NCBI RefSeq assembly: GCF_018141545.1
Contig: NZ_CP064356.1
Location: forward strand, 1,625,001 to 1,689,000
DNA from: Miltoncostaea oceani
GTDB lineage: Bacteria > Actinomycetota > Thermoleophilia > Miltoncostaeales > Miltoncostaeaceae
Length of the DNA: 64,000 nucleotides
Direction of reading: 5' to 3'
Shown here: positions 1 to 36,983 of the stretch, piece after piece
Layout of the letters: each line of letters begins with the position of its first letter
Numbering within the stretch: the first letter of the stretch is position 1
Position numbers and translations under genes: made by a program
Notes under the pieces: generated by a model
Told to the model about the DNA's origin: nothing
What the model saw: the letters and a program-made list of their open reading frames with translations, nothing else
Databases searched by the model: none

Positions 1-2206
<2,206 letters not shown>

Positions 2207-2263: not shown

Positions 2264-2380
2264 TCCGGTGGTCTTAGCGAGAGGGAAACACCTCTTCCCA
2301 TTCCGAACAGAGCAGTTAAGCCTCTTTGCGCCGATGGTACTCCGAGTGAAGACTCGCGGGAGAGTAGGTCGCCGCCGGGA
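2264..2380 (+). rRNA. rrf: 5S ribosomal RNA
   Basis: About 117 nt, starting 57 bases after the 23S end. It carries the canonical loop A/helix III stretch CCCATTCCGAACAGAGCAGT and the 3' part GGGAGAGTAGGTCGCCGCC. The 5' end (TCCGGTGGTC) pairs with the 3' end. The order 23S-5S with a short spacer is a normal rRNA operon end. Exact termini are uncertain by a few bases. Confidence 0.93.
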
Positions 2381-2400: not shown

Positions 2401-2432
2401 AGAGCCGCGGGGCTTAGGCCCGGCGGCTCTTC
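2401..2432 (+). terminator. rRNA operon terminator hairpin
   Basis: AGAGCCGC (2401-2408) pairs perfectly with GCGGCTCT (2423-2430), and the inner GGGC/GCCC adds more pairs. Only two T residues follow, so it is a strong hairpin with a weak U tract. Its position 20 nt after the 5S supports termination of the rRNA operon. Confidence 0.75.
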
Positions 2433-2725
2433 GTCGTTAAGGCGCGTGAGCGGCCGAGTGGTGGCCTCGCTCCAGACGGCGGAGTCGCGGCGGCGGCGGC
2501 CGTGGAGGTGCGGGCCGACGGGCGCCGGCAGGGATGACGGCCGGCCGGGGGACGAGCGACCGATGGGCGCGTCAGTCCTTCGGCGAGACGCCCGCAGGTC
2601 GCAGGCACGCCGGCCCGCGCGTCCAGGGAACGCGATGAGGCCCTGCTGCCGGCCACGATTCTCTGAGCAGCTGACGACGGCCGGTTACGGCATCGGTCGG
2701 GCGCGGGGGGCGAGCGCGGCCCCGC

Positions 2726-3048
2726 GGCCAATTGGACCGCGACCCTCAGGCCAGGTGGACCGCGACCCTCAGGCCAGGTGGACCTCGACTCGACGGCCAA
2801 GTGGACCTCGACGCCACGGCCAAGTGGACCTCGACCCCACGGCCAAGTGGACCTCGACCCCACGGCCAAGTGGACCTCGACCCCACGGCCAAGTGGACCT
2901 CGACCCCACGGCCAAGTGGACCTCGACCCCACGGCCAAGTGGACCTCGACCCCGCGGCCAAGTGGACCTCGGCGCGACGGCCAAGTGGACCTCGGCTCCC
3001 TCGGCCAAGTGGACCTCGGCTCGACGGCCGAGTGGACCTCGGGTCCAC
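2726..3048. repeat. 14-copy tandem array of a 23-bp repeat
   Basis: Units start at 2726, 2749, 2772, 2795, 2818, 2841, 2864, 2887, 2910, 2933, 2956, 2979, 3003 and 3026. The period is 23 bp, with one 24-bp unit at 2979. The core is GGCCAAGTGGACCTCG followed by a variable 7-mer, most often ACCCCAC. Six or more central units are identical; the outer units diverge. The array lacks stop codons in several frames, so long spurious ORFs cross it, but none looks like a protein. It lies in a gene-free stretch (2433-3312) behind the rRNA operon; outside the array I see nothing except the hairpin at 3273-3305. Related copies occur near 36.77-36.90 kb. Function unknown. Confidence 0.97.
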
Positions 3049-3619: not shown

Positions 3620-4606
3620 ATGGAACGCGATGGATGGCTCCAGGTCGAGGTCCGGCACCTCGCCGCGCTCCGGGCGGTCGCCGAGGCCGGCTCGTTCGGG
3701 GGCGCCGCGACGCTGCTCGGGTACACGCAGTCCGCCGTCTCCCAGCAGATCGCCACCCTCGAGCGCGCCACCGGGGTGCGGCTCATCGACCGGCCCGGCG
3801 GGCCGCGGCGCATCTCCATGACCGAGGCGGGCCGGGTGCTGCTGCGCCACGCCGAGCGCATCACCGCCGACATGGAGGCCGCGTGGGCTGACCTCGCCGC
3901 CCTCGCCGACGGCGCCACCGGGACCCTCCGCGTCGGCACCTACCAGAGCGTCGGCGCGCGGATCCTCCCCGACCTCATGCGCCGCTTCCTGCAGGAACGC
4001 CCCGGCGTCACCGTCGAGCTCACCGAATCCGGCAACGACGCCGAGCTCCTCGCCCTCCTCGAACGCGGCGAGCTCGACCTCTCGTTCACCGTCCTCCCCA
4101 TGCCCGACGGCCCGTACGAGGGCGTCGAGCTCATGACCGACCCCTACGTCCTCATGGTCGCCGCCTCCGACCCCCTCGCCGGCCGCGACGGGCCCCTCGC
4201 GCTCACCGACCTCGCGGGACGGCCGCTCATCGGGTTCCGCCACTGCCTCTCCGGGGAGTTCGTCGACGCCCACATCCGCCGGCACGGCGTCGACCTCGAC
4301 ATCGTCTTCCGCTCCGACGACAACGGCACCGTCCAGGGCCTCGTCGGGGCGGGGATGGCCTCCGCGCTCGTGCCCCTGCTCGCGGCCGACCCCGGCGACG
4401 ACCGGGTCGCCGTCCTCCCCATGGGGGACACCGTCCCGTCCCGGCGGATCGCCGTCGCATGGCACCGCGACCGGGCTCTCTCCGCCGCCGCGGAGGCGTT
4501 CATCGCCAGCGCCGCCCGCGTCTGCGACGAGCTCCAGCCCGCCGTCGCCGCCCCCTCCGGGACCGTCCAGGGGCCTCCGGACCCGCTGGTACCATCGCCG
4601 CGATGA
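3620..4606 (+). CDS. LysR-family transcriptional regulator
   Basis: The 328-residue length is usual for the family. A winged helix-turn-helix occupies about residues 8-68 (AEAGSFGGAATLLGYTQSAV and SQQIATLER), followed by a linker helix and a LysR substrate-binding domain from about residue 95 (GTLRVGTYQSVGARILPDLM). Such proteins bind DNA as tetramers and respond to a small effector. A -10-like TAGCGT lies at 3603-3608, 11 nt before the ATG, so the leader is very short. The stop overlaps the start of the next gene (ATGA), suggesting coupling, and a small gene is divergent upstream. The effector cannot be deduced. Confidence 0.93.
   Translation: MERDGWLQVEVRHLAALRAVAEAGSFGGAATLLGYTQSAVSQQIATLERATGVRLIDRPGGPRRISMTEAGRVLLRHAERITADMEAAWADLAALADGATGTLRVGTYQSVGARILPDLMRRFLQERPGVTVELTESGNDAELLALLERGELDLSFTVLPMPDGPYEGVELMTDPYVLMVAASDPLAGRDGPLALTDLAGRPLIGFRHCLSGEFVDAHIRRHGVDLDIVFRSDDNGTVQGLVGAGMASALVPLLAADPGDDRVAVLPMGDTVPSRRIAVAWHRDRALSAAAEAFIASAARVCDELQPAVAAPSGTVQGPPDPLVPSPR
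4590..4595 (+). promoter_or_regulatory. -10 element (TACCAT), leaderless-type, inside the lysR end
   Basis: TACCAT ends 7 nt before the ATG at 4603. The spacing predicts transcription starting at or next to the start codon, giving the oxidoreductase gene its own promoter in addition to readthrough from lysR. Confidence 0.5.
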
Positions 4607-34758: not shown

Positions 34759-34768
34759 GGTCGTACCT

Positions 34769-34842
34769 CGGGGCGTGGCGCAGCCTGGTAGCGCACCCGG
34801 CTGGGGGCCGGGCGGTCGGAGGTTCAAATCCTCTCGCCCCGA
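34769..34842 (+). tRNA. tRNA-Pro (anticodon GGG)
   Basis: 74 nt. Acceptor CGGGGCG/CGCCCCG, D arm GCGC-AGCCTGGTA-GCGC, anticodon arm CCCGG-CTGGGGG-CCGGG with GGG at the centre, T arm GGAGG-TTCAAAT-CCTCT. Discriminator A; CCA is not encoded. Sequence and arms are those of proline tRNA. The gene lies next to proS, and its 3' half is the left end of a small genomic island. Confidence 0.97.
34811..34838 (+). repeat. left direct repeat (attL-like) in the tRNA-Pro 3' half
   Basis: 28 bases identical to 36632-36659, running from the variable loop through the T arm into the acceptor stem. Similarity continues for 12 more bases with three mismatches. This is the standard location of tyrosine-recombinase attachment sites. 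Confidence 0.85.
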
Positions 34843-34850
34843 TAGGACGG

Positions 34851-34875
34851 AAAGGCCCGCATGAGCGGGCCTTTT
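34851..34875 (+). terminator. intrinsic terminator after tRNA-Pro
   Basis: AAAGGCCCGC (34851-34860) and GCGGGCCTTT (34865-34874) form a perfect 10-bp stem with an ATGA loop, followed by TTCGCTTT. It is the clearest intrinsic terminator in the window. It lies just inside the island's left boundary, so it may have come with the element. Confidence 0.9.
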
Positions 34876-34897
34876 CGCTTTCCGGACATGGCCCCGG

Positions 34898-35040
34898 TCA
34901 GGGCGTCGGAGCGGCCGTGACCCCAGGAGCGCCCTCCGCGTCGTCATCGAGGCCCGAGGCGAAGGCATCGAAGGCTTCGGGCATCAGGTGCCCATGTCGT
35001 AGGTTGGCGTGCGCTGGACGCCGGACAGGTGGGGGCTTGA
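34898..35040 (-). pseudogene. possible remnant of a tyrosine-recombinase integrase C terminus
   Basis: On the minus strand one frame reads RHGHLMPEAFDAFASGLDDD before a stop at 34898. It closely resembles the end of phage-type tyrosine recombinases, where the catalytic Tyr precedes GHLMP. Here the Tyr position is His, and a neighbouring frame reads PTYDMG just upstream, as if a small deletion had removed the Tyr and shifted the frame. Upstream sequence in any frame is not recognisable as integrase. Position and orientation (3' end toward the tRNA) are as expected for an island integrase. The match is short. The rest of 34876-35172 shows no gene. Confidence 0.35.
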
Positions 35041-35172
35041 CCAAAGCCTGCAGACGCCGCTGAACTCGTGCTGGGTTCGAACGCGGGACCGTGGTCAGTG
35101 CGTGGGTTACCAGTAGCCGGGAGGATTCCCAAGAAGCTGCCCTAGACGGTGGCGAGACCGAGGTTGTGACCT

Positions 35173-35901
35173 TTGATCGGATCATCCGGAGAGGCCGAGC
35201 CTGAGCTGCCCAGGAGGGTGTTTCACGGGACCCGCCCGGAGTTCTTCACCGAGGACGAATGGGACGCGGTGTTGGATGCCAACGCGCTCATGGGCGTCAC
35301 CGGGGACCAACTGCTCGTGCTCTATCGACACTGGCGGTGGGCCTACTGGCTCGCGGGTTGCCACGCGACAGAGTTGGTGCGAGAGAAACGGCGCGGAGAC
35401 GAGGGCGTCGGGCTAGGTTGGGAAGAGTCGCACGCCGATCAGGTCCTGGAAGAGCCGCCTCGCTTCGGCATCGCGCTGGAAGACCCGAGTTGGGGGGCGC
35501 ACTACATCTGGATGGCCGTCCTGCGGAGTGTTGTAGAAGCGGCAGAGAAGCATCTCAAGGTCGTCTTACCCGGTCGCCTGGGGGAGGCCGTCCACAGGAC
35601 GCGGCAGGTCTTAACTGACCAGCGGAACGCCGTCCTCCATTCGGGCGCGCCTAAGTTCTGGGACAGTCGCCTCACTCGCATCTGGGACGAGGACGATTCG
35701 TTTCAGGATGATGTGTGGCGGGTGAACCTCGGTCTCGGCGGTCTGATCATGGCGGAGCTCCAGATACGGGATGCCCTCGGCATCACGGGGCCACGTGACA
35801 CAAGAGACACTGACCCACCCACGGGGGTGATGGATTGTGAGCGAAAAGGCAAGGGAGGCGGACGAGCTCCGTTCCTCAGCCTGGCTGCGGGAGATCGATG
35901 A
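35173..35901 (+). CDS. HEPN-motif protein of a tRNA-associated island
   Basis: 242 residues from TTG at 35173; GTG 35218 is an in-frame alternative. The middle is helical: YRHWRWAYWLAGCHATELVR, HYIWMAVLRSVVEAAEKHLK, and VHRTRQVLTDQRNAVLHSGA. The last contains R151-N-A-V-L-H156, the R-N-x3-H signature of HEPN RNases found in toxins and phage-defence proteins. I infer a HEPN fold; the exact family is not recognised. Third codon positions hold more A and T than flanking genes, consistent with transfer. The C-terminal 22 codons overlap the next gene in another frame; its start may be coupled. Confidence 0.7.
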   Translation: MIGSSGEAEPELPRRVFHGTRPEFFTEDEWDAVLDANALMGVTGDQLLVLYRHWRWAYWLAGCHATELVREKRRGDEGVGLGWEESHADQVLEEPPRFGIALEDPSWGAHYIWMAVLRSVVEAAEKHLKVVLPGRLGEAVHRTRQVLTDQRNAVLHSGAPKFWDSRLTRIWDEDDSFQDDVWRVNLGLGGLIMAELQIRDALGITGPRDTRDTDPPTGVMDCERKGKGGGRAPFLSLAAGDR

Positions 35902-36463
35902 TCGACGTGAGGAGGAAAAAGCCGCCCTCGTGACCGCTCGTGTGTTGGGGGCCGGGCTCGCGGCAGCCGGGGAGGGCGTCAGCGAAGTCCGCATTGCTCT
36001 GTTGGCTGCGGCAGCCATGGAAGGGCTGTCGCCCGACTGGTACCGATCGATCCACCTCGACCTCGGAGAACTCGCACGGGACATTGCCCTCGAGGGCGCA
36101 AGGGCACAGCCCTTCCCGCGTCGAACGAGTGACCCATGGCCTCCGCTGCTGCCCCACGCCGGGTTGCGAAAGCCGTTTCGGCTCCCTCTCAGCAATAGAC
36201 ATCGCCAGCTGATTCGCCGCTTCGCGCTTGATGAGGCGCGGGTGATACGGGCCGGGGTTCTGCAGGCGGAGCTAAACCCGCGCCTCCCAGAGATCGGTCC
36301 CGGAAGAGAGGCAAGGGTAAGAGCGATTCGGGAAGCCATGGAGGCGGAGGACCGGCGGCTCGGCCTCGGCGCAGATCAGACCGGACTTAGCCTCGCGTCA
36401 CTCGCTACGAAGATCTGGAGTAGTCATTTCAAGAGGGAACGTGGCTTAGACGATCTGGACTAG
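35837..36463 (+). CDS. hypothetical partner protein overlapping the HEPN gene
   Basis: 208 residues from GTG at 35837, overlapping the HEPN gene by 65 bp in another frame. The N terminus is highly charged and helical (READELRSSAWLREIDDRRE, EEEKAALVTARVLGAGLAAA); the middle has Pro-rich TSDPWPPLLPHAGLRKPFRL; the C-terminal half is basic and helical (HRQLIRRFALDEARVIRAGV), ending FKRERGLDDLD. No family recognised. The long overlap suggests cotranslation. It could be an antitoxin, sensor or effector partner; nothing in the sequence decides. Composition is lower in GC than flanking genes. Confidence 0.65.
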   Translation: MSEKAREADELRSSAWLREIDDRREEEKAALVTARVLGAGLAAAGEGVSEVRIALLAAAAMEGLSPDWYRSIHLDLGELARDIALEGARAQPFPRRTSDPWPPLLPHAGLRKPFRLPLSNRHRQLIRRFALDEARVIRAGVLQAELNPRLPEIGPGREARVRAIREAMEAEDRRLGLGADQTGLSLASLATKIWSSHFKRERGLDDLD

Positions 36464-36470
36464 GCGACCC

Positions 36471-36494
36471 GCCGTGACCTCGCCGTGACCCCAG
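36471..36494 (+). repeat. GCCGTGACC repeats near the island's right end
   Basis: GCCGTGACCTC and GCCGTGACCCC stand in tandem with an 11-bp period (36471, 36482). The second copy, GCCGTGACCCCAG, also occurs at 34914-34926 near the left end in the same orientation. They could be recombinase arm sites or simply duplicated ends. Confidence 0.4.
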
Positions 36495-36631
36495 CAGCCC
36501 GATGCCGGATCACATTGGGCGCTCTCAGCCGGCTAGACGCGAAGCGGCGGGATCGCCGTCATGGTGCGGCATCCCGGCCATCGTTGGGTATCTTGGTGAC
36601 GTGCCCGGACCGCCTGTCTCGGGCTGGGGCC

Positions 36632-36659
36632 GGCGGTCGGAGGTTCAAATCCTCTCGCC
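36632..36659 (+). repeat. right direct repeat (attR-like), partial tRNA-Pro 3' half
   Basis: 28 bases identical to 34811-34838. Sequence before it (GGCTGGGGCC) resembles the anticodon arm with two bases lost, but no 5' half exists and the acceptor end is altered, so it is not a functional tRNA. It marks the right boundary of the 1.82-kb island. Confidence 0.85.
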
Positions 36660-36764
36660 GCGGTAGGACGTGGGAGCCCAGCGGTGCCGTCCGCGGCAGC
36701 GGTCCGCACGACGGACCCCATGCGGCCACCCCCCCAGGGTGGTCCGCCCGTGGACGGGATCGCC

Positions 36765-36915
36765 GATGGTCCGAATGGACCTCGGTGTCGCGCCCGAATG
36801 ACCACCGACGGCGAGTGCGCCGATCGGCCGGCGAACCCCCGGTAGCCATGGGGTTCGGCCCAAATGGACCTCGGTGTCGCGGCCAAATGGCCGTCGACGG
36901 CGCGGCCGATCGACC
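36765..36915. repeat. two dispersed copies of the 23-bp repeat family
   Basis: CCGAATGGACCTCGGTGTCGC (from 36771) and CCAAATGGACCTCGGTGTCGC (from 36860) each continue into a second, more degenerate half-copy and a shared downstream block (CGACGGCG...GCGCCGATCG or GCGGCCGATCG), making two diverged direct repeats of about 55-60 bp at an 88-89 bp spacing. The core ATGGACCTCGG matches the array unit at 2726-3048. The gap 36464-36983 otherwise contains the island end and no gene. Confidence 0.8.
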
Positions 36916-36983
36916 GCGGCACAGCACCTCGGGGAGGGGGAACCGACGACGGAGGGGGCCGGACGTCGGCGGGACACGTCACT

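Follow-up and report, generated by a model that had tools for sequence, protein, structure and literature searches.

Among the closest described systems to the repeats reported here are the REP, BIME and REPIN elements with their RAYT (TnpA-REP) protein, which resemble them as short extragenic palindromes in high copy number, clustered and present in both orientations, with a preference for convergent gaps and the 3' ends of genes and with a dedicated partner protein. High-copy extragenic palindromes at 3' ends and in convergent gaps (cf. PMC3733652) were found here as well. The arrays differ, however, in their 23-bp lock, in their CTCG tail and in having neither GTAG nor CGTC, and their candidate partner differs from RAYT in that it carries a zinc knuckle and lacks any recognised catalytic domain. 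The Y1 transposase family (PF01797) has no match in the four genomes of the genus, where controls were positive, and membership of the GTAG or CGTC superfamilies of REP was rejected, with neither the tag nor a RAYT found. Neisserial NIME are likewise intergenic arrays of short inverted repeats, some of them inside longer units of about 100-130 bp, and the dRS3 repeat is ATTCCC(N8)GGGAAT (PMC3898611). This identity was rejected too, as the unit consensus differs from that repeat; the arrays here also differ from NIME in spacing and partner, with no target of a phage integrase identified. Lambda Xis is a small winged-helix protein that forms a cooperative filament on neighbouring sites. The C-terminal motif PSxxTxxRW of the family of about 154 residues described below aligns weakly with it, but the family has a zinc knuckle and a PGSYxW segment, its match lies below the cut-offs, and neither an integrase nor an att site is linked to it. 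Plasmid iterons are direct repeats of about 20-23 bp that are bound by protein, whereas the arrays here are dispersed over the chromosome at gene ends, away from dnaA, and were not seen on the two smaller replicons; an assignment to origin or plasmid iterons was rejected on the ground that the arrays avoid a long stretch around dnaA. No earlier description of such repeats in this group was found in the literature searched, which lay outside most subscription journals.

The Array Behind the rRNA Operon

The window analysed here is the whole 64,000-nucleotide stretch of the Miltoncostaea oceani chromosome, and the features that matter for the argument are collected in Table 1. Tandem Repeats Finder places the larger array at 2720-3041 with a period of 23, 14.0 copies, 90% matches and a score of 470, while core matching gives a first unit at 2726 followed, as far as 3041, by 23-bp steps with a single 24-bp exception (2979 to 3003), and both bear out the 14 units and the 23-bp period read by the first-pass annotation. 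Ten units match the 16-bp core throughout and the outer units depart from it at one or two positions, in keeping with the identical centre and degenerate edges described earlier. With up to three mismatches allowed, the window holds 22 matches to the core against 1.27 expected, and none of 100 shuffles held as many. Each unit of this array is one imperfect palindrome, GGCCAA|GTGGACC, with a CTCG tail. The surroundings are indeed free of genes, over a longer distance than the 0.9 kb first given, namely about 1.24 kb from the end of the 5S rRNA at 2380 to the start of the LysR-type gene at 3620. The claim that the array is non-coding also holds: a simple codon-usage caller trained on this genome calls no gene in it, it is open in several frames simultaneously owing to a low density of stops, and 23 is no multiple of 3. 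Unique CRISPR-type spacers are absent, as had been noted, and a CRISPR array, which needs unique spacers of about 30 bp, was rejected for a repeat whose 7-bp spacers are identical in the centre.

Table 1. Features of the window considered in the text
Feature	Position	Strand	Basis or remark
23S rRNA	1..2205	+	Rfam; 5' end cut by the window; the genome's only rRNA operon
5S rRNA	2264..2380	+	Rfam
Terminator-like hairpin AGAGCCGC...GCGGCTCT, directly after 5S	2401..2438	+	sequence
14-unit 23-bp array	about 2720..3048	+	consensus CCCCACGGCCAAGTGGACCTCGA
LysR-type regulator, first gene past the array	3620..4606	+	family name read from sequence
Second array, shorter and more degenerate, same repeat family	36769..36916	+	repeat finding, core matching

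The single 23S-5S locus of the genome (G000 C1:1626800-1627400) lies 1.63 Mb from dnaA and far from the origin. The sister genome G007 also has one 23S-5S locus, at 1.886 Mb. The hairpin that follows the 5S rRNA recurs in a similar form in two sister genomes without the array (loci L078, L079), and the array is therefore not needed as the terminator of the operon. An array was not found behind the rRNA operon in G007, G073 or G109, the stretches seen in the last two extending to conserved neighbouring genes, and in G109 an ortholog of the LysR-type gene follows the operon with no array between. The array is thus dispensable or recent at its site. Because it is 82% identical over 319 bp to another array at 2.834 Mb, that locus may have supplied its seed, with expansion following. 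It has the look of an array that expanded recently in place, behind an operon with a terminator-like hairpin of its own, so a strong rRNA-specific role is not supported.

A Family of Arrays Along the Chromosome

The genome-wide search of the core that the first-pass annotation had proposed found about 28 intergenic arrays on the chromosome, each of 2-20 units; the repeat is thus not local, and the confinement to one site that had been named as a sign of a neutral satellite was not observed. The pattern CCRADTGGACC occurs 94 times forward and 94 times in reverse in this genome, against 7 and 8 times for the reversed control, and among the core matches listed all are on the 3.68-Mb chromosome and none on the two smaller replicons. 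Across the 399 genomes scanned in the class, the extended core was in excess only in four genomes, all of the same genus, and a scan of the phylum with the 23-bp-spaced form agrees with this restriction. Comparable arrays were not seen in partial samples of three sister genera, the named matches to the core were two MAGs only, one of them from the Thermoleophilia, and no relatives of the arrays were found in phages, plasmids or viral contigs. Rfam gave no match at the gathering threshold for the array of the window or for six other array loci.

The arrays favour particular places. They occupy 13 of 28 convergent gaps in the genome of M. oceani but only 11 of 113 other gaps (p=3e-5), and in G007 the counts are 7 of 16 against 8 of 56 (p=0.017); in divergent gaps they are rare. 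The genus's two complete genomes were compared around dnaA, where the array-free stretch measures 897 kb in our genome (p=0.007) and 1,280 kb in G007 (p=0.002). On the maps this corresponds to 2.94-3.68 Mb plus 0-0.1 Mb in the former and to 2.64-3.37 plus 0-0.55 Mb in the latter, and G007 is also free of arrays across 1.3 Mb around its presumed terminus. A replichore polarity of the arrays was rejected, as a search with the reverse pattern shows both orientations mixed along the chromosome. A replication or segregation factor, offered earlier as the possible binder, is left unsupported by arrays that lack such polarity and are depleted around dnaA. Turnover is considerable: among syntenic intervals, three have an array in both genomes, six in G000 only and three in G007 only, and the three shared positions exceed chance (p=0.006), most others having been gained or lost. 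Gaps that have gained an array are longer by about 170-770 bp: three that measure 675, 882 and 269 bp in G000 span 175, 108 and 100 bp in G007.

A Palindrome on a Fixed 23-bp Step

Alignment of the units on their 8-bp centre shows the core to be an imperfect palindrome, G[TG]CCRA|NYGG[AC]C, to which a CTCG tail is attached on one side. When units from 25 loci were chosen by that centre alone, the flanking G[TG] and [AC]C proved to be conserved between loci, while most positions of the spacer were near background. Whether direct, head-to-head or tail-to-tail, neighbouring palindromes keep a distance of exactly 23 bp. In the genome of M. oceani, 54 same-orientation pairs lie at exactly 23 bp from centre to centre, and every opposite-orientation pair less than 40 bp apart, in this genome and in G007, is at exactly 23 bp, a pattern that involves at least six loci in two species. 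Relaxed palindromes in non-coding DNA form 119 pairs at 23 bp against at most nine at neighbouring distances, and those in the coding DNA of the same genome show no 23-bp peak. Since slippage copies units in one orientation only, a step that is kept through inversion speaks for selection on the spacing by a bound protein. The earlier geometric argument, that 23 bp is about two helical turns and would present a bound protein on one face, is loose: 23 bp is closer to 2.2 turns, and successive sites are rotated by roughly 70-80 degrees.

A Candidate Partner Protein

Two of the arrays have in common a longer similar stretch, which encodes a protein of about 154 residues. The protein has an N-terminal zinc knuckle (C-x2-C/C-x2-H) and a C-terminal helix that is weakly excisionase-like; the Cys, Cys, Cys and His are invariant in 49 of 49 aligned members, all of which also have a PGSYxW-type segment and, near the end, PSxxTxxRW. 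The helix-turn-helix call of the C-terminus rests on sub-threshold excisionase matches, since the best score against Pfam Exc (PF07825) is 15.9 bits for a cut-off of 23 (E=0.013), short of membership, and the PDB match to a phage excisionase has E=0.38. The family is absent from Pfam, NCBIfam and PHROGs and has no meaningful PADLOC match, and an apparently neutral satellite is in this way joined to a family left unnamed by the first three of these collections. Its homologs were not found among phages, plasmids or viral contigs. A whole-genome search found the gene in 17 of the 399 genomes of the class, with 8 matches in our genome and 7, 6 and 8 in the others of the genus, 6-9 in four genomes outside it and fewer elsewhere. 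Third codon positions change most in these genes (genus mean 0.45 vs 0.26), which indicates a protein under selection, and the copies of G007 are 94-97% identical over 665-843 bp, upstream DNA included, which indicates recent dispersal. Most copies of the genus (e.g. L055, L037, L092) have variable tails rich in Pro and Gly after residue 154, with no stop nearby. Relatives in another family have a stop within a few residues of the terminal PSxxTxxRW motif.

The genes and the palindromes are found together. In our genome, five of the eight copies have an array no more than about 350 bp away (binomial p about 4e-9), and these five arrays sit upstream of the start codon. Across the genus, 20 of 21 copies have a pair of palindromes exactly 23 bp apart within the 300 bp upstream, against 0-10 copies at control distances. 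Other genera, whose proteins are 33-54% identical and whose palindromes have diverged, show ten upstream CANTYG/CRANTG pairs at 23 bp against 0.16 expected; none of 300 shuffles matched this, and coding DNA and reversed patterns gave essentially none. That motif was picked after the sequences had been inspected, with shuffles and reversed patterns as its controls; 15 of the 28 upstream regions from other genera have no 23-bp pair, and a generic palindrome score over these regions shows no 23-bp peak. The class scan came later and was predicted beforehand: genomes that carry the gene should hold 23-bp-spaced CANTTG pairs genome-wide. An excess of CANTTG-N17-CANTTG (at least 7, controls 0-2) was found in 7 of 399 genomes, every one of them a carrier of the gene (p=6e-11). 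The genomes of the genus have 101, 28, 42 and 28 pairs, two from another family have 73 and 37, and one from a sister genus has 7. The pairs examined outside the genus are mostly intergenic and lie in tandem, convergent and divergent gaps. The association has its exceptions, as one genome (G083) with seven copies of the gene has yet only three spaced pairs, and genome-wide pairs are absent from several genomes with few copies, as they are from G180, G113 and G134, where the gene is present.

Possible Function and Competing Explanations

The earlier description of the locus as a protein-binding array gains support from these sequence comparisons, which now supply a candidate family, though not in the form of a replication or segregation factor. 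We consider it probable that the array behind the rRNA operon consists of about 14 adjacent sites for a dimeric DNA-binding protein, the likeliest being the family of about 154 residues. Each site would be one palindrome with a CANNTG-like centre, and the 23-bp repeat would let neighbouring dimers bind side by side, possibly in a cooperative manner. The binder would be a multi-copy family whose members have a zinc knuckle at the N-terminus and a helix-turn-helix-like segment at the C-terminus, and the 23-bp palindrome pairs directly upstream of its own genes suggest that these are self-regulated. The same family would bind the other intergenic clusters, mostly at 3' ends, and the bound clusters may serve as local transcription barriers or insulators, or as architectural sites. 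Single arrays would grow by tandem slippage or unequal crossing-over, which would explain their identical centre and degenerate edges, and would be gained or lost between species. A wider picture can be put forward only tentatively, and we regard it as doubtful: a chromosome-wide architectural or insulator system of the Thermoleophilia, in which the zinc-knuckle family polymerises in 23-bp steps at gene-end arrays and regulates itself through the same pairs, site and protein co-diverging between families. If the link between the arrays and the family is confirmed, the two would form a system of repeat and protein that is independent of REP/RAYT, and would open a route to chromosome organisation or transcription insulation in an actinobacterial class that is deep and has been little studied. 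The site, the spacing and the candidate partner are defined well enough for a direct bench test.

Other explanations have to be weighed against this one. A selfish or mobile repeat of the REP kind would spread as a palindrome pair with its adjacent gene, the protein, an excisionase-like factor or a recombinase accessory, acting in mobility instead of regulation and the intergenic arrays being insertion debris tolerated where promoters are not needed. The recent dispersal seen among the nearly identical G007 copies and their upstream DNA, the longer gaps of G000 where arrays were gained or lost, the taste of REPs for 3' ends and convergent gaps (PMC3733652) and the fact that the weak protein match is to an excisionase all speak for it, but the four genomes of the genus lack a Y1/RAYT transposase, no GTAG or CGTC tag was seen, most arrays have no family gene beside them, no homolog was found among phages, plasmids and viral contigs, and debris would not be expected to keep unlike units on a fixed 23-bp step; we hold this account to be unlikely. 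A barrier or insulator role would fit the location of the arrays and a selfish, REP-like spread their turnover, and the two would be compatible. A neutral satellite, arising from a GC-rich non-coding seed that slipped in tandem, with ectopic copying behind the likeness between arrays, draws on the identical centre and degenerate edges, on the resemblance to the 2.834-Mb array (82% over 319 bp) and on the array not being found behind the sister rRNA operons examined. Slippage, however, does not hold a 23-bp step across opposite orientations or keep a core while the spacer drifts, and it predicts neither that diverged genes in other families have this spacing ahead of them nor the co-occurrence across 399 genomes. 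As a full account it is thus strongly disfavoured and most improbable, while as the cause of copy-number growth in single arrays it is likely; the proposed replication slippage stands for local growth and falls short for the core conserved across arrays and the step kept across orientations.

It is, finally, very unlikely that the arrays are bidirectional transcription terminators acting as RNA hairpins in convergent gaps. On either strand, inverted pairs do fold into strong hairpins (z about -7 to -9), arrays are enriched in convergent gaps, and one G007 pair almost exactly fills such a gap. The folding of direct arrays, by contrast, is weak and inconsistent (z between +1.1 and -8.3, with -3.0 and -2.0 for the rRNA array), and the left and right arms of the palindrome show no covariation; hairpins that are strong in inverted pairs only, with arms that do not covary, are not a common feature of the family. 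The rRNA operon and tRNA-Pro, moreover, have terminator-like hairpins of their own ahead of the arrays. An intrinsic terminator was rejected, direct arrays having no consistent hairpin and the rRNA array no U-run.

The Second Array of the Window and Other Repeat Forms

The second array of the window (Table 1), which the first-pass annotation did not connect with the one behind the rRNA operon, has units at about 36769, 36858, 36881 and 36904; an att-like copy of the 3' end of a tRNA-Pro gene precedes it by about 100 bp. Like the rRNA operon, this tRNA-Pro has its own terminator-like hairpin ahead of the array. The tRNA-Pro(ggg) opens the interval 34768-36664; behind it comes a stretch where the codon-usage caller places no gene, and at about 36624-36664 a partial copy of the 3' end of the tRNA (GGAGGTTCAAATCCTCTCGCC). 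What lies here between tRNA-Pro and the second array has the appearance of a small element, integrated and flanked by att-like ends.

Some arrays are organised in a higher-order repeat, of about 127 bp in L069 (G000 C1:2559559-2560238) and of 77 bp in L087 (G007 C1:697874-698115), where a conserved linker separates one group of sites from the next. A separate array in G007 (C1:2950317-2950462) proceeds in 23-bp steps with a different core (GCTCACTTGGGC), which suggests that there is more than one type of site per genome.
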